DNA of 22,357 nt from a virus. Of the stretch, positions 3,200 to 21,521 are shown piece by piece (the stretch's first letter is position 1; every line of letters starts with the position of its first letter). Location: positions 1 through 22,357 of the IMG/VR virus record IMGVR_UViG_3300037245_000561. One strand, given 5' to 3'. Made by a program: the position numbers and the translations under genes. The notes below the pieces were generated by a model that was not told the DNA's origin, did not search any database, and saw only the letters and a list, made by a program, of their open reading frames with translations.

Positions 3200-3520
3200 T
3201 TATAAGCAAAGGCCTGGAGATTCTTTACAGAACCTTGCTCTTGCTTTATCTTCTATTAAAATATTTTTAACTGAATCAATTTCTTGTTTTGTAAACATTA
3301 ATCTAACGTACACTTGCTGATGAAACAGTGCTCTTTTTCTAAGCTTTAGTTCATCATCCATTCTAGTTTTTATTGGTTTTATAACAAAATCTCTTGCAGC
3401 TTGGTATCCATGGTAACCCCCTAAACTACTCACTCCCAAAAATATAGAAAATAATGTAGCTAGTATGGTGGAAGGTTTTTTAACTATTCTAATAGCTTCC
3501 GTAGTATCTACTTTAAGCAT
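3200..3520 (-). CDS. Small protein with one N-terminal membrane helix, candidate lysis accessory protein
   Basis: The protein has 106 residues. A charged N-terminus (1-16) is followed by a hydrophobic segment at about 17-40 (PSTILATLFSIFLGVSSLGG). The rest is charged and helical (51-100), with cysteines at 98 and 105. The topology, a single anchor followed by a helical soluble domain, resembles inner-membrane spanins, but no partner outer-membrane lipoprotein or lipobox is visible, so that role is speculative. It overlaps the end of the receiver-domain gene by 8 bases and has its own AAGGAAG ribosome site. It is the last of a three-gene group downstream of the tape measure. Confidence 0.65.
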   Translation of the reverse strand: MLKVDTTEAIRIVKKPSTILATLFSIFLGVSSLGGYHGYQAARDFVIKPIKTRMDDELKLRKRALFHQQVYVRLMFTKQEIDSVKNILIEDKARARFCKESPGLCL

Positions 3521-3890
3521 TTAGTAACTTCCTTTTTTCTTTAGTGTATTGAAACCACCCCAACACTGATTCTTTTTCGTACTTCTTTATAATAGCTGAA
3601 ATTTTATCGTTGTCAAGATTTGATTTTTGGTATACTTCTGAATTAGTGCTCATTAAAGCAAAATCAGCACTTATATGCTGCGCCAGTGAAGTTATTAATA
3701 TGTTTCCGTAAGTCCAACTTAAGGCATAGTCTACAAATACTATGTCGAAGAATTTCATTTCTTCTATCTCGATTTGGGATTCTGTGACAAAAGAACAAAT
3801 CTTTACATTCATACCTTCAAAATAACTAATAAATAGAGCAATGAACACCTCGTCGTCGTCAACCACAGCTATGCTAATTGTCTTTTTCAT
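3513..3890 (-). CDS. Stand-alone CheY-like receiver domain protein
   Basis: Starting at ATG 3890 the protein has 125 residues, the usual size of a single receiver domain. It shows the hallmarks in order: VVDDDE (acidic pocket D11-D13), FDIVFVDYAL with candidate phosphoacceptor D54, ALMSTN giving the S/T81-82 switch position, and IIKKYEK giving the lysine at 102-103. No DNA-binding or enzymatic output domain follows. The start was chosen because its ATG overlaps the upstream stop (ATGA at 3890-3887); an in-frame upstream extension to 3950 lies wholly inside the preceding gene. Receivers are phosphorylated by histidine kinases in the host cytoplasm. A free receiver between two small membrane proteins in a phage late operon is unusual. 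It may tap into host signalling or act as a phosphate sink. Function is inferred. Confidence 0.75.
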   Translation of the reverse strand: MKKTISIAVVDDDEVFIALFISYFEGMNVKICSFVTESQIEIEEMKFFDIVFVDYALSWTYGNILITSLAQHISADFALMSTNSEVYQKSNLDNDKISAIIKKYEKESVLGWFQYTKEKRKLLNA

Positions 3891-4258
3891 CCTGGAGGGG
3901 GCCTCACGTATGCCATAATTGTCATTACTGCCGTTATTACTGCGGTACATGCACTCATGACCACAATAAGATTAGTTAAAGAAACTGTATTTTTTAATCT
4001 TTCGTTAATAGGTTTAAGCGCAGATTCTAACTCTGGTTTTTTTACGTAGTCAGCAGCATTTACACTTGACTGCAACTCTTTTAAAGTTACTTTTATTTCC
4101 GAGTAATTTTTATGATCTTGAATTTCTACTATTTTTGCAATTTCTATGTGGCTATCCATTTTAGATTTTAAAGCTGTAGTATCATCTACTACTTTAGAAA
4201 TCCGTTTATCTTGCTTTTCAAGCTGTGAATAAGTATGTCTTTTAAATTCATCGTCCAT
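3887..4258 (-). CDS. Coiled-coil protein with a C-terminal membrane helix, holin-like candidate
   Basis: The protein has 123 residues. Residues 1-90 are highly charged and helical, with heptad-like spacing. Residues 92-118 form one hydrophobic segment (LTNLIVVMSACTAVITAVMTIM), followed by a short RPPPG tail. This layout resembles XhlA-type holin accessory proteins and other small phage membrane proteins placed after the tape measure, but no family signature is certain. It starts 9 bases after the tape-measure gene ends, and its stop overlaps the receiver-domain start (ATGA), so the two are probably translationally coupled. The ribosome site is weak. Confidence 0.65.
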   Translation of the reverse strand: MDDEFKRHTYSQLEKQDKRISKVVDDTTALKSKMDSHIEIAKIVEIQDHKNYSEIKVTLKELQSSVNAADYVKKPELESALKPINERLKNTVSLTNLIVVMSACTAVITAVMTIMAYVRPPPG

Positions 4259-4266
4259 GGTGCTCT

Positions 4267-6660
4267 TTATCCTTGTGTCGGGTTAAAAAACCCTCTATCA
4301 ACTAATTCTTCTTGTAAAAAATTACCAAAAGCAGCTTTATCTTTTTTCAAAACATCAAAAATGTCTTGCGAAGATTCTTGCCCTATAGTAAATGTGGGAC
4401 TGTAAGAAATTTCATTTGTCACTGTCGAAGTTCCTCGCCCTGCGTTCATTCTGTTAATGGTGTCTGAGCCTGCTCTAGCGGTAGCTCCTGCGTTCAGCAC
4501 AGCTTCTTGACCCTTCTCATTTACTTTTATGTTAGCATTTCTGCCTACTGGGAAACCGCCTGATTCAAAAGCTTGCGAAGCTATGGTAGCTGTCTGTGCT
4601 GCTGCTGTTGCAGTAGTCGCTATTAAAGCAGGCAAGTTAAGTGGGAAAGGAGCTGAAGCATTAGCTTTTGCAATTGCAAGAGCCCCACTCATAATTGCCT
4701 CGCCTAGCATTATCTTTTTAACAGCTTTGGCGTTCATACCCATTACACTTGATATTTGCGCAATAGATTTTATTACAGTTGAAGCAGTATTACCCCATGT
4801 AACTGCTAATGCGATTCGCGCTTGCTTCTCTCTTACTATACTCGCTACCACTTCTTTTGAAGCTTTCAACTTATCAGCAGTAGCTTTTTTATCCATAGCT
4901 GCTACTTTATCTTCATGCGCCTTTTTCTCTTCAATAATTTTTGCGTCAAACTCTTGTGTTATTGCAAGTTTAGCACCTTCAAGGTTAGCAGCTTGAGCTA
5001 GTAAATCAGATTTTTCAGTTTCTAAAAGGGCTAGTCTACCTTCGTGTGTCCTAGCTTGGAAATCTAATTCAAGTTGTTTTACTTGCTCTAGTAATGCCTT
5101 ACGTTCATCTAATTTCTGTTGGGACAAGGCAGCTTCCGCTGCTGCTGCTTCTTGAGTAATACCTACTAATTCTTTTTCAGCGGCAGTCAAATCTTTTACT
5201 GATGTTGCTGTTTCTGCGATAACTTCACTTGCGCTTCCAAAAAGCTCTAAGACACTAGATCCTTCTAACTCTTTAACGTCAGTAACAATATCTTGGAACG
5301 ACTGTCCTGCTACATCTAAATTAGTATTAGCAAACTTTTCAATACTTTCTTGCCACCCGTCAGGCAAAAACCTTTTAGGTATTTTTGAAATTAGTTTAGC
5401 TATTCCGCCTATTACCAAAGCAACATCGCCAATAATTAAATTAGCTGCTGACTTTATCACAAAAACTAAGCTTCCCCAAACATCTTGCACGGCTGCTACG
5501 GCAAAAGCAATACCTAATCTAATAGAATCCATGTGCTTTAAAATACCATCCATTAAACTTTTCATCGCAGGCATTATTTGATTTCCCACTTCTATAAACG
5601 CAACATTGAAGCTTTGCTTAACTTTGTTGGATTTAAACTCAAAGGTATCTGTAAATTTTGAATAAGCTTTAGCAGTTTCACCGGCTCTATCGCCCATTAA
5701 TTTCATAACTTCCTTGAAGTTTTTTCCTTCGTCAGCAGCTAAAGCTAAAATGCCTTTCACTCCCTGAATATTAGGGACTAATTTTTTAACCCCTTCCAAA
5801 GTTCCGCCGCCCGCTTCTGTTATGTTGTTAAGTATATCAATAAAAGTAGCGCCCTCTTCTCCGGTAACTTTAGAAGCCAAACCTAAGTCTGCCATACGTT
5901 TGGAAGCTTCTGGTGTAAGGGAGTTGATAGCAACTAAAGCACCTTGCATAGCGGTAACAGCATCTCTAGTTCCGAAACCGGCTTTGGTAAGTGCAGAAAC
6001 AGCACCTAACATCTGGTCAAATTCTAATCCCGCAGCTTTAGCAGTAGGTGCTAACACACCGACACTTTCAGCTAATTCTTGTACAGTTGTTTTACCAAAT
6101 TTCATGGCAGTAAAGAAAGCATCACTAACATCACCTGCTTGAGAGGTTTCTAAGCCAAAAGCATTGATAATAGTAGTTAATCCATCGACTGCGACTGAAG
6201 TTTCAGTAGCTCCTCCAATTGCTAGTTGAGTTGCAACACCTAAAAATTCCATAGCATCACCGGCAGCAACACCGGCAGAAACAGCATCAAATAATGAAGT
6301 TGTTAAGGTATCTAATCCTTGCCCCGACTGAGCAGACAAGTCCAATACCTCTTTAGAAAACTGCCCAATGTTGTCGCTCATTTCTTTTGAAAGCGTGGCT
6401 ACTGAAGCCATTTGACTTTCAAACTTTCCGGCAGCCCCCACTGTGGCTTGAAATGCTTTAGCTAATCCGGCCCCTAGAATCAATCCTTTGATGCTAATTA
6501 AACTATTAGCAACATTACCCATTGATTTTTTAAACGACCTAGCAGCTTTGCCCATTTTTTGAAACTGTTTGAGCGTAGCTTTCCCTATGCCTTTCATCTG
6601 GGCAGTTACGTTGTCTAACAGTCTCGCTTCGACTGAGAGTACTTCGTCAGCTCCAGGCAT
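4267..6660 (-). CDS. Tail tape measure protein (TP901 type)
   Basis: The protein has 797 residues. The N-terminal third (about 75-330) matches the TP901 tape-measure core: an FESQMASVATLSKEM opening, then SVAVDGLTTIINAFG, KFGKTTVQELAESVG and GFGTRDAVTAMQGAL. A hydrophobic stretch at about 380-430 is typical of the membrane-inserting part. A coiled coil rich in Glu, Lys and Ala covers about 490-615, and an alanine-rich hydrophobic segment lies near 650-700. The protein sets tail length inside the tube and is ejected on infection. At the usual figure of about 1.5 angstroms per residue, a tail near 120 nm is expected (inference). It follows the G/T chaperone genes as usual. A GAGGAAG ribosome site precedes ATG 6660. 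Confidence 0.95.
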   Translation of the reverse strand: MPGADEVLSVEARLLDNVTAQMKGIGKATLKQFQKMGKAARSFKKSMGNVANSLISIKGLILGAGLAKAFQATVGAAGKFESQMASVATLSKEMSDNIGQFSKEVLDLSAQSGQGLDTLTTSLFDAVSAGVAAGDAMEFLGVATQLAIGGATETSVAVDGLTTIINAFGLETSQAGDVSDAFFTAMKFGKTTVQELAESVGVLAPTAKAAGLEFDQMLGAVSALTKAGFGTRDAVTAMQGALVAINSLTPEASKRMADLGLASKVTGEEGATFIDILNNITEAGGGTLEGVKKLVPNIQGVKGILALAADEGKNFKEVMKLMGDRAGETAKAYSKFTDTFEFKSNKVKQSFNVAFIEVGNQIMPAMKSLMDGILKHMDSIRLGIAFAVAAVQDVWGSLVFVIKSAANLIIGDVALVIGGIAKLISKIPKRFLPDGWQESIEKFANTNLDVAGQSFQDIVTDVKELEGSSVLELFGSASEVIAETATSVKDLTAAEKELVGITQEAAAAEAALSQQKLDERKALLEQVKQLELDFQARTHEGRLALLETEKSDLLAQAANLEGAKLAITQEFDAKIIEEKKAHEDKVAAMDKKATADKLKASKEVVASIVREKQARIALAVTWGNTASTVIKSIAQISSVMGMNAKAVKKIMLGEAIMSGALAIAKANASAPFPLNLPALIATTATAAAQTATIASQAFESGGFPVGRNANIKVNEKGQEAVLNAGATARAGSDTINRMNAGRGTSTVTNEISYSPTFTIGQESSQDIFDVLKKDKAAFGNFLQEELVDRGFFNPTQG

Positions 6661-16066: not shown

Positions 16067-17640
16067 ATTATATAACTCTTCTTTTTCTGTTTACGGCATT
16101 GCCATGCGATACCCCACGCTATAATGGAGTCATCATGTTGCCCTTTATCGGCTTCGTACCTTCCGCCGTTATCAACGAAAGTTTTGCACTCAGCCAAGAA
16201 TAATGCGTCATTGACTTGCATATATCTTTGCTCAAGTGCTTCATTAAGGCCATCAAGAAGCAGAGGCCTAGTAGAAGCATTAGTATGCCACCCAGGACGG
16301 TTCTCAGTTTTTTGTTGGCTGTACTTATCTTTATCAAGAGGTCTTTTCCTGTAAAAAACATTCTTGTAATGTAATGTATTGAGCACTGTGTTCATTACAG
16401 AGTGACCGTGGTTGTTTATTTCGCAAGCGAACATCGCACCATTGTAGTCTTTGCAGAGAGTTATACATTTTCTTGCAAATACCTCTGGCCTCCAACGACC
16501 TCTTAAAACTGCAACCTGCTTACCAGATTCTTTTTCTATTATGCCACAGACACTCATATCAGAATTAGCATTACCTTCTGACGTATCTGCTCCGGCACAA
16601 TATTCTACATTGGGCTTTGGTCTTTCCCAAATAAGTAAATTATCGCCTTCGGTCAATGGTTTATTTAAATTTTTCATTAACCCGTCTATCATTTGCGGGT
16701 CGAAGAAGCTTTGGCCTCTTACTAAGAATGCTTGAACCCATGTCTCAGGATATTCTTGTAAGAATAGTTTTTTCAACTCATTAGACTTATCAGCGCGCCA
16801 TATCATCTGAGCCATTGAGAGGTCGTACTCGTTCATAATTTCACGTTCTTCTTGAGTTACGGTATCCAACCATTCTTCTTCTTGGAGTTGGGTTGGGAGT
16901 ATAACATTCTCAGGATCTAACCACCATGGATAAAATAGCGGTATCCATTGATTGCCACCTTCCATTGCTTCTTTATATTTTTCGTAGAACCACCCTTGAG
17001 CACCGTCAGCAGTGGTTTCTAAAACTACTTCCCCATGTCTCGCAGCTTCAGTCACACCGGCCATTAAGTTATCAATGGTATCATAGTCACCTGCCCAACG
17101 ACTTACTTCAGAACCATGGGCCCTGTATATGTTATCGCCACGAGCGAAAGAACGTGAGCCTGCTGTACCTATGTGAAAGTATGTATTGATGGCGGGGATT
17201 TCGATAGCGACTTTAGAGTCCATTATTTTATGCTTCAACTGAGGATCTAACTTAGCCATCAGGTTGACCATGCGGAATATTGATTTAGTGTTGGGGATAG
17301 TGTCCGCTAGGGTCACGCATGTAGTATTTGGCATTGTAGTGACTACCCTATATGATAGGGCTTGTTCCCATGTTGTCATCCCCATTCTTCTGGATTTGAG
17401 TAACAAATAGCGGGCTTTTTTACCTGCTGCTAAGGCCTCTTCTTTTCTTTGCTGATGTAACAACTGAACTTTTTTAGCTTTGAGGTTAACAATATTAGAG
17501 TGTAGGTTCTTTATCCTAATGCGGTTACTTAAAAATCTTTCGAGGGTTAGAGCCCCGGCTCCTGTAGTGTCTAAATGTACGTCAAGCATCTCCAACCATC
17601 TATTACCAGACATAGCATAAGGAGAGGCAGCAGCTATCAC
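16063..17640 (-). CDS. Terminase large subunit
   Basis: The protein has 525 residues. The ATPase half has a Walker-A-like KSRRMGMTT (82-90), a hydrophobic-acidic Walker-B region IYRAHGSEVSRW (171-182, E178) and a coupling motif VVLETTADG (205-213). The nuclease half has GADTSEG (D352), CEINNHGHSV (E407) and GQHDDSIIAWG (D503-D504), the RNase-H-like triad. Together these drive DNA packaging into the prohead and cut the concatemer. Start is GTG at 17640 preceded by AGAGG; the alternative ATG at 17616 lacks a ribosome site. It overlaps the DUF5675 stop by one base (TAGTG) and the portal start by four. Confidence 0.95.
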   Translation of the reverse strand: MIAAASPYAMSGNRWLEMLDVHLDTTGAGALTLERFLSNRIRIKNLHSNIVNLKAKKVQLLHQQRKEEALAAGKKARYLLLKSRRMGMTTWEQALSYRVVTTMPNTTCVTLADTIPNTKSIFRMVNLMAKLDPQLKHKIMDSKVAIEIPAINTYFHIGTAGSRSFARGDNIYRAHGSEVSRWAGDYDTIDNLMAGVTEAARHGEVVLETTADGAQGWFYEKYKEAMEGGNQWIPLFYPWWLDPENVILPTQLQEEEWLDTVTQEEREIMNEYDLSMAQMIWRADKSNELKKLFLQEYPETWVQAFLVRGQSFFDPQMIDGLMKNLNKPLTEGDNLLIWERPKPNVEYCAGADTSEGNANSDMSVCGIIEKESGKQVAVLRGRWRPEVFARKCITLCKDYNGAMFACEINNHGHSVMNTVLNTLHYKNVFYRKRPLDKDKYSQQKTENRPGWHTNASTRPLLLDGLNEALEQRYMQVNDALFLAECKTFVDNGGRYEADKGQHDDSIIAWGIAWQCRKQKKKSYII

Positions 17641-18050
17641 TAATATGCCTCTGTGATAGTCAAGTTTAGTTCGTCGGAATCTTCTGCCATCTCTAAGAAC
17701 TTTTTGAATGTAGTGCCTGAATTAAGGACTGCTCTGTTTCCTTTCAGTTTGCCGAAATACTGTGCAACAAGTATACACCCTCTTGTGTGTGATACAACAT
17801 TTCCCCCATGGAACAAAACATAGGTTCTATTGGGGACGTTTGAGACTGCCCATGTTGCTTTATATTTGGGTGACTGAAATTTGGTACAGGTGTATTGTCC
17901 TGCGGGTATTGAGGATCTTCCAACTGCATTCTCCCTGTCAGGCGGTTCTAAAGTTACGCATAAAACCTTACCGTTAAATACTAGAACGCCAAACGTACCT
18001 TCTGTCTGGTGATCTTCAACTCTTATTAATCTTAGAGTAGCTATTCTCAT
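17640..18050 (-). CDS. DUF5675 family protein
   Basis: The protein has 136 residues. Matches to the DUF5675 outline are: TEGTFGVLVFNGKVLCVTLEPPDR (16-39), SIPAGQYTCT (47-56), VPNRTYVLFHGGN (72-84) with the conserved HxGN, and TRGCILVAQYFG (89-100) with a conserved GCI. The family is of unknown function. Its conserved His and Cys are reminiscent of cell-wall transpeptidase-like folds, so a lysis role is possible but unproven. It sits between the small and large terminase genes, an unusual place. A promoter-like element lies directly upstream and no ribosome site is seen before ATG 18050. Confidence 0.8.
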   Translation of the reverse strand: MRIATLRLIRVEDHQTEGTFGVLVFNGKVLCVTLEPPDRENAVGRSSIPAGQYTCTKFQSPKYKATWAVSNVPNRTYVLFHGGNVVSHTRGCILVAQYFGKLKGNRAVLNSGTTFKKFLEMAEDSDELNLTITEAY

Positions 18051-18830: not shown

Positions 18831-19715
18831 TTATTTTATTAATGCGTTAAACTCTTGTCTCAAGTCTGGTTGCTTAAAAGCCCCTCTTAGCGCAGATGTG
18901 ATCATAGATCTGTTTTGCTTACCTACTCCTCTTGCGCACATGCAATGATGCTTCGCTTCGATAACTACCATTGCAGACTCGCATCCGTCAATGTGTTCGG
19001 TGATAGCATTAGCAACTTGATCAGTTAGCTGTTCTTGTATCTGCAATCGTCTCGCATAGACATCTACCAGCCTTGCTAACTTAGACAAGCCAACTACCTT
19101 ACCGTTAGGTATGTAACCTATGTGAACTTTACCAAAGAAAGGTAGCATGTGATGTTCACACATACTGTAGAACTCTATGTCTTTACATATTACGAGAGAT
19201 GTATTATCAGAAGAGAACACTGTGCCTAGGACATCTTTGGCTTTTTGATTGTATCCTGAGTAGAGTTCTTTCCATGACTTAACTACACGCTTAGGTGTAT
19301 CTAACAAGCCTTCTCTTGTTGGGTCTTCCCCTATGTGTTGTAGATAGCGAGTTATGGTAGACATGGCATCACCATCTTTGCCTTCATGCTCCCATGGGAA
19401 TACAAGCCAATGCCCGTCAGCCTTAGTGCATCCCCAAAACTTTTTATCGGGATACATCTTCATCCATTTCTTTTCAGTAGCTCCTGAGTCTATAATGTCG
19501 TCAACTATTACATTGCACTCATGTGCATGCTGAACCATTACAGCTTTGCCCATTACATGTAAGAGCATAGCGATGTATGTACCGCCTCTAGGGACACCAT
19601 ACACTTTAGTCTCAGGAGGTAACTCCCAATAGTCATTTATCTCATCTCTAAGATTGTCCCATGTAAGGTTTACGGTTGGTTTATTATCTTGTGTGTCTGT
19701 AGGCTTAGTCTCCAT
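18831..19715 (-). CDS. folE: GTP cyclohydrolase I with an N-terminal phosphoribosyltransferase domain
   Basis: The protein has 294 residues. FolE occupies about 116-294: [33 protein letters not shown] with zinc ligands C186 and H189, [23 protein letters not shown], and [15 protein letters not shown] with C258. FolE turns GTP into dihydroneopterin triphosphate, the first step to preQ0. Residues 1-115 form a small type I phosphoribosyltransferase-like domain: [15 protein letters not shown], then the PRPP-binding [13 protein letters not shown] (69-81) and WLVFPWE, typical of purine PRTases. FolE proteins are normally 180-220 residues. The fusion may couple purine salvage to deazaguanine synthesis (inference). 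It overlaps QueE by 46 bases and has an AAGGAG site 11 bases upstream. Confidence 0.95.
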
Positions 19716-20344
19716 GGAAGTCCTAGCTCCTTAACTTTTTGAATGGTTGCATTAGTGTTGAATAAGTTTATCTGAGCGTCTTGCTTGTCGATAGGTTGCA
19801 AGAAGCGTTGTATGCTGTGACTGCTTACTTTAACTATTACTTTATTAAAGTCCTCTGGTGTGATCTTTGGATTAGGGTGAGGGTACAATAACTTTAAGGT
19901 GGTTACATGTTGCCAATCTATTTTACATTCTTCTGGAGATAACTTAGGGCTACATGTTACGAAGTCTAGTATGCTTAGTATAGCAGGCTTGTTAACGGTG
20001 CCGTTAGTTTCGACTTGCGTGGTGAAACCTAACTCATGTAACTCTTTAACTAGGTCTACTAGGTCGGATTCTTGTTGTAACAAGGGCTCACCTCCAGACA
20101 GCACTACTAACATGTTAGTCTTGCCTCTTGTTAGATGTGCTACTTCGCCTACGACTTCGTGTACAGACATCTTCTCACCGTCAGTGAAGTCTGTGTCACA
20201 GAAGGGACACTTACTCTCTGCTTGGTCTTCGGGCTTACCAGACCACATGTTACATCCAGAGAAACGAATGAAGATGGCGGGACATCCTGCTGTCTCTCCT
20301 TCGCCTTGTATAGTGGGCCCGAATATTTCTTTAACTAATAACAT
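19670..20344 (-). CDS. queE: 7-carboxy-7-deazaguanine synthase (radical SAM), long-loop type
   Basis: The protein has 224 residues. It opens [28 protein letters not shown], the QueE signature. The iron-sulphur cysteines are C31, C46 and C49, a CX14CX2C spacing like the Burkholderia-type QueE rather than the usual CX3CX2C. SGGEPLLQ at 83-90 binds the methionine of SAM. The enzyme converts 6-carboxytetrahydropterin (from QueD) to 7-carboxy-7-deazaguanine, the substrate of QueC. ATG 20344 directly follows the upstream 64-residue gene's stop, and AAAGGA provides a ribosome site. Length is normal. Confidence 0.95.
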
Positions 20345-20345
20345 C

Positions 20346-20540
20346 TTATTTCAGTCCTTTGATGTAATCGACAACCGCGTCTACTATTGCTAATGACAAG
20401 CGGTACTCGTGCTTCTCTTGGACTTTGGGAATGTCTATCTTGTCTGAGATAGTCTTTGCAATCTTCTCGCGGAACTCTCCATCATCTAACTTCTTGAGGA
20501 CGTAGCCTAGTGCTATCTTCAGTGCGAATTTTTTAATCAT
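20346..20540 (-). CDS. Unknown 64-residue helical protein inside the que cluster
   Basis: A small lysine-rich helical protein: MIKKFALKIALGYVLKKLDDGEF, then DKIDIPKVQEKHEYRLSLAIVDAVVDY. It has no clear membrane segment, although the first 17 residues are amphipathic. An AGGAG ribosome site lies upstream of ATG 20540. It sits between QueD and QueE, so it is co-expressed with the preQ0 enzymes. I do not recognise it. A role as regulator or stabiliser of the pathway is only a guess. Confidence 0.7.
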   Translation of the reverse strand: MIKKFALKIALGYVLKKLDDGEFREKIAKTISDKIDIPKVQEKHEYRLSLAIVDAVVDYIKGLK

Positions 20541-20566
20541 GTTGTTACTCCTGGTTTGTGGGTTGG

Positions 20567-21010
20567 TTAATCTAATTCAACTTCTACGAAGCAGTTCTCA
20601 GTTTCCCACAGCACTATCTTGTATATCTCGACATCAGTGTCTTCGAACAGTCCAGGACATATAACATTAAGGAAGTGGTCTGCCATGTTCTCGGCAGTAG
20701 GGTTGGTAGACATGCCGTACTTCTTCTGCTTGTGTCCAATGAGCTTATCTAGCGCGTGAGCTACTTCTATATCATCGAAGAAGTAAATAAAGCCGTGATC
20801 CCACTTGTCTTGAATCCAATCGTTGCACTTAGCTTTAATGACTGAGAAGTCTATTACCCTACCTAACGTGTCTAGGGCAAGACCCTTCTTAGGCCTAGCA
20901 TGTATGTATATGATATAGTTGTGTCCGTGCATGTTATTGCACTTGGACTCGTGCTTGTGGACTCTATGTCCTGCACAGAACTGTAGTCTTCTAACTGCTG
21001 TGTATGCCAT
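20567..21010 (-). CDS. queD: 6-carboxy-5,6,7,8-tetrahydropterin synthase
   Basis: From ATG 21010 the protein has 147 residues. The family signature is clear: RLQFCAGHRVHKHESKC, then NNMHGHNY with zinc ligands H15, H28 and H30 and catalytic C24. Next come GRVIDFSVIK, a DHGFIYF segment, NPTAENMADHF and LWETENCFVEVEL. The enzyme turns dihydroneopterin triphosphate from FolE into carboxytetrahydropterin for QueE. The start at 21010, not an in-frame codon 30 bases upstream, is chosen because AGGAGA lies 8 bases before it. It overlaps the end of QueC by 20 bases. Length is slightly longer than the usual 120. Confidence 0.95.
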   Translation of the reverse strand: MAYTAVRRLQFCAGHRVHKHESKCNNMHGHNYIIYIHARPKKGLALDTLGRVIDFSVIKAKCNDWIQDKWDHGFIYFFDDIEVAHALDKLIGHKQKKYGMSTNPTAENMADHFLNVICPGLFEDTDVEIYKIVLWETENCFVEVELD

Positions 21011-21521
21011 GTATCTGTCTCCTCTCTTTGCAATTAACACAATCGCAAGTTAAATAGTTGTCTTTGTTATTGTAGCAGTTATATCCGTAGAACTGTAAAT
21101 CTTCCTTAAATAGGTAACGGAAGATGCGACGCTTAGTCCACCACATTACAGGAAACTTAACTTTGATGCCTAACAACCAGGCAAAGAGTTTGAGTGCTAT
21201 GTAATTAGAGTCGCCATACTTGTCACCTATGTATGTTGGGTTACGAGTACCCATGTATACGTGAGTGTAACCTTCTTGTTTAAGCCTTAATAGGAATAAG
21301 AAGTTGCGTCCAGGCATATCGGTTGTTCCCTGGCTAAGGCGATAGGTTTTTAATTTATGTGACTGCCGTGCTGTATACATAGCAGCAGCTTTATACTCTT
21401 TACCTTCATAGAGCTGTCCGTATTTGAAGAACACATATGCCGCTTCTACGTCCTTAACTCTTTCAGCTACCGCTATGCTATCGAAGCCTCCACTCATTAG
21501 GGTAGCTACCTTCTTAATCAT
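20991..21521 (-). CDS. queC: 7-cyano-7-deazaguanine (preQ0) synthase
   Basis: The protein has 176 residues. A PP-loop nucleotide-binding motif SGGFDS (10-15) opens the protein, PGRNFLFLL (70-78) follows, and the C-terminal zinc cysteines are C149, C159, C161 and C164 within NYLTCDCVNCKERR. QueC uses ATP to convert 7-carboxy-7-deazaguanine and ammonia to preQ0. It is shorter than bacterial QueC (about 220-230), with the loss in the middle. Key motifs remain, so it is likely active. Its ATG overlaps the upstream stop (ATGA), indicating coupling. It could be a diverged phage QueC, and no amidotransferase domain is attached. Confidence 0.92.
   Translation of the reverse strand: MIKKVATLMSGGFDSIAVAERVKDVEAAYVFFKYGQLYEGKEYKAAAMYTARQSHKLKTYRLSQGTTDMPGRNFLFLLRLKQEGYTHVYMGTRNPTYIGDKYGDSNYIALKLFAWLLGIKVKFPVMWWTKRRIFRYLFKEDLQFYGYNCYNNKDNYLTCDCVNCKERRQIHGIHSS

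Follow-up and report, generated by a model that had tools for sequence, protein, structure and literature searches.

What would a tailed phage do with a response-regulator receiver domain that has no output domain and stands among its late genes? The preliminary description of this locus had offered three roles: sensing the host phosphorelay state to time lysis, sequestering a phosphotransfer protein, or altering chemotaxis. Single receivers as phage genes are already known. The pairing of a receiver with a membrane coiled-coil protein inside lysis cassettes was not described in the literature found, a search that mostly did not extend to subscription papers.

The locus and its phage

The window, that is, the whole stretch of DNA analyzed, is one entire IMG/VR record of 22,357 bases; it is linear and probably a fragment. 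Pfam and PHROG profiles identify in it the minus-strand late region of a tailed phage, with terminase, portal, HK97-type capsid and tail genes and a tape measure gene. Three small genes lie 3' of the tape measure, in the order 4258-3887 (123 aa), 3890-3513 (125 aa, the receiver) and 3520-3200 (106 aa). The features of this part of the window are:

4267..6660, minus strand: tape measure protein (Pfam/PHROG), upstream of the triplet; anchor for the comparison with phages L002 and L003
3887..4258, minus strand: upstream partner, 123 aa, with a helical/coiled-coil N-terminal part and a predicted C-terminal membrane segment at aa 97-115; class III pinholin layout
3887..3890, minus strand: ATGA overlap of partner stop and receiver start, seen in the sequence; probable translational coupling
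3513..3890, minus strand: stand-alone receiver, 125 aa (Pfam Response_reg, AlphaFold2 strands β1-β4, PDB fold matches)
3860-3852, minus strand: receiver residues D11-D13
3731-3729, minus strand: receiver residue D54
3650-3645, minus strand: receiver residues S81/T82
3587-3585, minus strand: receiver residue K102
3513..3520, minus strand: 8-nt overlap of receiver stop and downstream gene start, seen in the sequence
3200..3520, minus strand: downstream protein, 106 aa, with a borderline N-terminal membrane segment and helical tail; i-spanin-like layout, no family match

The terminase is only distantly related to those of isolates, the best being 29% identical (Roseobacter and Vibrio phages). The near-relative contigs L054-L057 from IMG/VR are short. 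Three of them (L054, L056 and L057), which cover 4-7 kb around TerL, encode a TerL 94-100% identical to that of the window, indicating that near relatives of this phage are present in other metagenomes. No related prophage turned up when genome contigs were searched with the tape measure profile.

Other parts of the window have features of their own. Upstream of the late region, positions 18831-21521 encode FolE, a QueE-like radical SAM protein, QueD and a short QueC, which together make up a 7-deazaguanine cluster; a gene for a transglycosylase could not be seen in the 22,357-base fragment. The GTP cyclohydrolase I of this cluster (18831-19715) occupies residues 120-293 of its ORF; the N-terminal extension before it, about 115 aa long and unrecognized by Pfam, contains VPRGG and a second motif that resemble the PRPP loop of type I phosphoribosyltransferases. 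A 575-aa tail-region protein (997-2724) has internal repeats and no significant family match.

A divergent stand-alone receiver

The receiver ORF begins with the ATG at 3890 and stops at 3513. An alternative in-frame start is possible at 3950; it is the ATG at 3890 that falls in the 4-nt ATGA overlap with the upstream stop. Among 24,736 Pfam-A models the top family is Response_reg (E 1.3e-4), with residues 7-106 matching positions 1-103 of the 111 in PF00072, at a score of 22.5 bits that is below the curated cut-off of 30.2. Searched against the window's own record, the Response_reg profile gave E 2.5e-6 at the receiver position. A profile built from phage receivers only scored the ORF at 13.9 bits, rank 2 among itself and 20,000 shuffles. 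Direct searches found no relative in IMG/VR, and the phage records yielded nothing beyond a jumbo phage receiver at E 0.6. Known defence models gave no match.

Single-sequence AlphaFold2 gave a poor model (pLDDT 44). A second run used a 16-row alignment that is informative only up to strand 4, the relatives having been truncated there to avoid imposing a C-terminal register on the model. It predicts β1-α1-β2-α2-β3-α3-β4 fairly confidently, with block pLDDT of 72-86, and an uncertain last third (β5/α5). Among the best 50 PDB matches listed by Foldseek almost all are response-regulator receivers, the best at E 3.7e-4, the top matches having a TM of about 0.5. Matches to viral models span E 1.4e-3 to 2.5e-3. 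A protein named as cREC (cyclic-phosphate-processing receiver) is the best at E 1.4e-3, the receiver of Alteromonas phage V22 is second at a similar score, and a "CheY-like receiver" of an uncultured phage is also among them. The predicted receiver fold of the first 82 residues is thus well supported.

The residues D11-D13, D54 and S81/T82 are placed at the ends of strands 1, 3 and 4, as a receiver site requires. In the alignment D11-D13 and D54 correspond to D8, D9 and D52, which are invariant in phage receivers; these receivers keep the acidic pair and the phospho-Asp. For the lysine, the Pfam span (β5 = ISAIIKK) makes K102 the probable residue, whereas MAFFT alignment with the phage receivers puts it one residue off. 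The MAFFT register would leave out helix 4 and was judged unlikely on the argument that about three residues cannot span the distance between parallel strands.

The reading of this ORF as a divergent stand-alone receiver holds. The preliminary description of a free-standing CheY-like receiver of 125 aa on the minus strand, lacking an output domain, is borne out in its coordinates, its extent and, for strands 1-4, its fold; the ORF ends directly after the receiver. The conserved D54 and pocket acids that it expected in homologues are there. Its "complete receiver site" stands for the acid triplet, D54 and S81/T82, and is likely for the site as a whole, the lysine differing between the two alignments. 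The profile search that it proposed returned the expected family at a sub-threshold score, and structure prediction returned a receiver-like fold for strands 1-4, leaving the last third uncertain.

The coupled neighbors

The stop of the 123-aa partner and the start of the receiver share the ATGA, as expected for the translational coupling to a coiled-coil membrane protein that had been proposed. The partner has no convincing Pfam family. Its layout, a helical N-terminal domain and a single C-terminal anchor at residues 97-115 of 123, is that of a class III pinholin, the helical domain being predicted to lie on the cytoplasmic side. The overlap with a second membrane protein was also confirmed: the receiver shares 8 nt with the 106-aa ORF, whose N-terminal membrane segment is borderline, just under the threshold of 1.6. 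None of the genes adjacent to the receiver matched a holin, spanin or endolysin profile in Pfam or PHROG. The triplet may itself be a lysis unit.

The likely hydrolase of the window lies 14 kb from the receiver, which counts against a role of the receiver in lysis timing:

17640..18050, minus strand: DUF5675 protein, putative murein hydrolase (Pfam E 6.1e-30), distant from the triplet

DUF5675 has no known function. It is probably a murein hydrolase, because in otherwise matching lysis cassettes it and peptidase M15_3 take each other's place. The exchange was seen twice, between the Alteromonas phages XX1924 and PB15 and between V22 and contig L020. The H..N...(S/T)xGC pattern of DUF5675 is reminiscent of that of YkuD transpeptidases. 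Besides the window copy, DUF5675 or M15_3 loci are found at L018:12829-13236, L027:2438-2836, L020:5007-5396 and L028:3384-3740.

A recurrent partner and receiver module

The 13 loci inspected belong to Alteromonas phages, which represent several unrelated families, and to related IMG/VR contigs. They were collected through receiver similarity and are partly of common ancestry. The partners in several of the locus groups also resemble each other, so the 13 do not amount to 13 independent cases. In all 13 a protein of 98-125 aa lies directly upstream of a lone receiver, with a gap of -4 to +17 nt, and has one membrane or marginally hydrophobic segment plus a coiled-coil-like helix; on the Kyte-Doolittle scale the segment is marginal in the V22/A5 group. 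As background, an upstream gene of up to 130 aa with exactly one membrane segment is found in 15 of 174 adjacent co-directional pairs (~9%) of such loci.

Twelve of the 13 loci have spanin, holin or endolysin genes as neighbors, and it is in marine viruses unrelated to this phage that such a receiver is found within a lysis gene set. In phages V22 and A5 and contigs L020, L022, L023 and L049 the receiver overlaps an Rz-like i-spanin gene (PHROG E 8.5e-6 in V22 and 2.9e-8 in A5), followed by an o-spanin-like lipobox ORF and a 2-TM protein; the A5 module lies between tail fibre and portal, near the A5 endolysin. The R9Y1 group has ATGA on both sides of the receiver and then a GH108 endolysin (E 5e-24 in R9Y1). 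The order in R8W and H4/4 is holin, partner, receiver, membrane protein and TerS, the R8W holin being annotated as class II. In XX1924 partner and receiver are followed by DUF5675 and GTA_holin_3TM (E 1.4e-14), and in PB15 by peptidase M15 and a holin-like protein closely similar to that of XX1924. L046 has an o-spanin-like lipoprotein (weak PHROG match) and a 2-TM protein after the pair. L045 has the partner and receiver, and no lysis gene was seen downstream. A further stand-alone receiver, in a jumbo phage (LR756501.1; L014:2974-3345, Pfam E 1.1e-18), is outside any visible lysis context and is a counterexample to a universal lysis link.

Two of these groups can be compared closely with the window. 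V22 gp30 and A5 gp11 share with the window receiver the stand-alone form, the place after a small membrane/coiled-coil protein, the overlap with a following membrane protein and the late region. They differ in their Pfam scores (79 and 63 bits against 22.5), in their length of 147-149 aa, which includes a C-terminal extension, and in having an N-anchored partner and a recognized Rz/Rz1-type spanin pair after the receiver. XX1924 and PB15 are like the window in that the partner has a coiled coil followed by a C-terminal anchor, its sequence being weakly but measurably similar; XX1924 also has the ATGA overlap. The DUF5675 or peptidase M15 and the 3-TM holin that follow the receiver in these two phages are absent beside the window receiver.

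The statement that stand-alone receivers are rare in phages is broadly correct, yet such receivers recur. The XX1924 receiver matches 58 phage records, of which 11 are Alteromonas phages, and most of the others look like bacterial contamination. CheY/receiver searches of phage records are in general dominated by apparent contamination (Listeria, Staphylococcus, fecal contigs). Receivers match many OR84xxxx-OR85xxxx and CAKLQ records labelled as Listeria, Staphylococcus, Enterococcus, Salmonella and Acinetobacter phages; the pattern suggests bacterial chromosome fragments, which distort searches for phage-borne receivers. A 42.7-kb contig in a Candidatus Neomarinimicrobiota bin (PBFM01000045.1; L036) carries the R9Y1 receiver at 99% identity and is probably an R9Y1-type Alteromonas phage placed there by a binning error.

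Relatives that lack the receiver

Two phage relatives, with tape measures 51 and 48% identical to that of the window, are L002 and L003. At the place of the triplet L003 has a 75-aa protein with a coil and a C-terminal anchor and a 103-aa N-anchored protein, and L002 has a 117-aa N-anchored protein. Neither record has a receiver anywhere. The small proteins of both match those of the window at chance level only, and the L003 proteins were rejected as homologues, position and layout being all that they have in common with the window proteins. L002 and L003 have small membrane genes here but no receiver, which suggests that the receiver was inserted between two membrane-protein genes of the late region, into a pair or site that was there before. 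The same triplet, for which a search in related phages had been proposed, is missing from the nearest relatives; the pair of membrane partner and receiver is found in 13 of 13 inspected loci.

Partner types and the N4 pinholin

The partners are of two types. Those of V22, A5, R9Y1, R8W, L045 and L046 have an N-terminal membrane segment and those of the window, XX1924 and PB15 a C-terminal one. In the comparison of the window partner with that of XX1924, 4 of 1000 heptad-preserving shuffles scored as well, and in the comparison with that of PB15 none of 1000 did; most coiled-coil controls scored below these comparisons. A conserved phosphoacceptor histidine was sought in the partners and rejected: no His is common to the N-anchored partners, a single His is alike only in some, and a shared His column in the C-anchored partners rests on a weak alignment.

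The experimental precedent comes from phage N4, whose gp63, a class III pinholin, determines the time of lysis and has a cytoplasmic helical N-terminal part and a C-terminal membrane anchor (PMC12642591). The "receiver domain" in that work is a short stretch of gp63, not a response-regulator receiver. The layout of gp63 equals that of the window partner; sequence homology was not found in the shuffle comparison, in which 30 of 1000 heptad-preserving shuffles scored as well, near chance for coiled coils. The N4 lysis genes gp60-gp63 adjoin the gene of the 94-kDa protein. Unlike the window, the N4 cassette of gp63 pinholin and gp62 lysis regulator has no described phosphoreceiver. CheY and DivK have the phosphorylation site of the window receiver and, over strands 1-4, its predicted fold; they differ from it in being cellular, in having known kinases and targets and in that their genes are not coupled to one for a membrane coiled-coil protein.

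What the receiver may do

Quite possibly, judging from gene layout and comparison, the receiver is an add-on that couples the phosphorylation state of the host to a holin-like partner, and hence to lysis timing. The partner and the receiver would be made together, the ATGA overlap being observed and the coupling likely. The partner is predicted to sit in the inner membrane with its helical domain facing the cytoplasm, as a class III (pin)holin or a regulator of holins would. The receiver would bind this helical domain, as the constant pairing of the genes suggests. D54 would be phosphorylated by a host kinase, a phosphotransfer protein or acetyl phosphate; the donor is placed in the host because no kinase gene was seen within the window. 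Phosphorylation would alter the interaction and advance or delay holin triggering, so that lysis time tracks the physiological state of the host. Comparisons favor this role over sequestration of a phosphotransfer protein or altered chemotaxis because a membrane coiled-coil protein with a receiver sits inside lysis cassettes elsewhere. Against it count the lack of a lysis profile match beside the window receiver and the divergence of the C-terminal third, the usual output face of a receiver.

Host reprogramming, in which the receiver would drain a host phosphorelay (that of the phosphate response, motility or chemotaxis) or compete for it to the advantage of the phage, with no direct link to lysis, is unlikely but is the most serious rival. 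A phosphorylatable single domain without output would suit it, and it is how the authors on V22 and R8W read their genes: the "CheY-like" genes of V22, A5 and P24 were described as auxiliary metabolic genes common to a host-recognition module (PMC7289586, PMC10579305), and R8W gp48 was taken as PhoB (PMC8228385). Moreover, the module-bearing isolates found (V22, A5, R9Y1-3, R8W, H4/4, XX1924 and PB15) all infect Alteromonas, which suggests a host-specific target. The late position argues against it, however, as does the close linkage of the receiver gene with lysis genes and a membrane-protein gene, and the DNA-binding domain of PhoB is absent from the receivers. It is rather improbable that the ORF is a degenerate receiver, serving as a structural or chaperone part of a tail or lysis complex in which phosphorylation is no longer relevant. 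The sub-threshold Pfam score, the short C-terminal third that is uncertain in the model and the insecurely placed lysine would fit such a protein, but a drifting scaffold would not need the acid triplet, D54 and S/T, all of which are kept.

A sensor for superinfection exclusion or lysis inhibition, in which the inner-membrane pair reacts to a second phage or to envelope stress and blocks DNA entry or delays lysis, is a little less probable still. It draws on the probable cytoplasmic domain of the membrane partner and on the precedent of N4, where lysis inhibition acts through lysis regulators (PMC12642591). Lysis timing, however, explains the linkage to lysis genes at least as well, and defence models miss the window receiver and match the partner and other phage receivers weakly. 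Very improbable is a cREC directed against nucleotide-based immunity, as proposed for jumbo phages. These phages also encode a receiver-like domain with aspartates, and the catalytic aspartates are kept in cREC domains (PMC7824862); the best viral fold match of the window receiver bears that name. But the jumbo phage domains belong to a different family and an NAD-related gene context. The Pfam scan at E up to 1 gave Response_reg and no cREC family, the V22 receiver matched with a similar score, and no recognized NAD or ADP-ribose gene is adjacent to the window receiver.

Implications for phage lysis

Holin accumulation, membrane potential and superinfection are known to affect when a phage lyses its host. 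Host signal transduction would gain a direct connection to lysis if a receiver acted on a holin-like protein. It is conceivable, on the doubtful side, that unrelated phages, above all those of Alteromonas, acquired a two-gene module that lets host two-component signaling gate lysis. If true, this would be a new type of lysis regulator, controlled by phosphorylation and not by a holin/antiholin ratio or by superinfection, and the labels PhoB and auxiliary metabolic gene now given to these receivers would be corrected. Isolates that carry the module are available, some of them growing on Alteromonas macleodii ATCC 27126, so that the idea can be tested quickly. The virus may thus rely on signals of its host to choose the moment of lysis.
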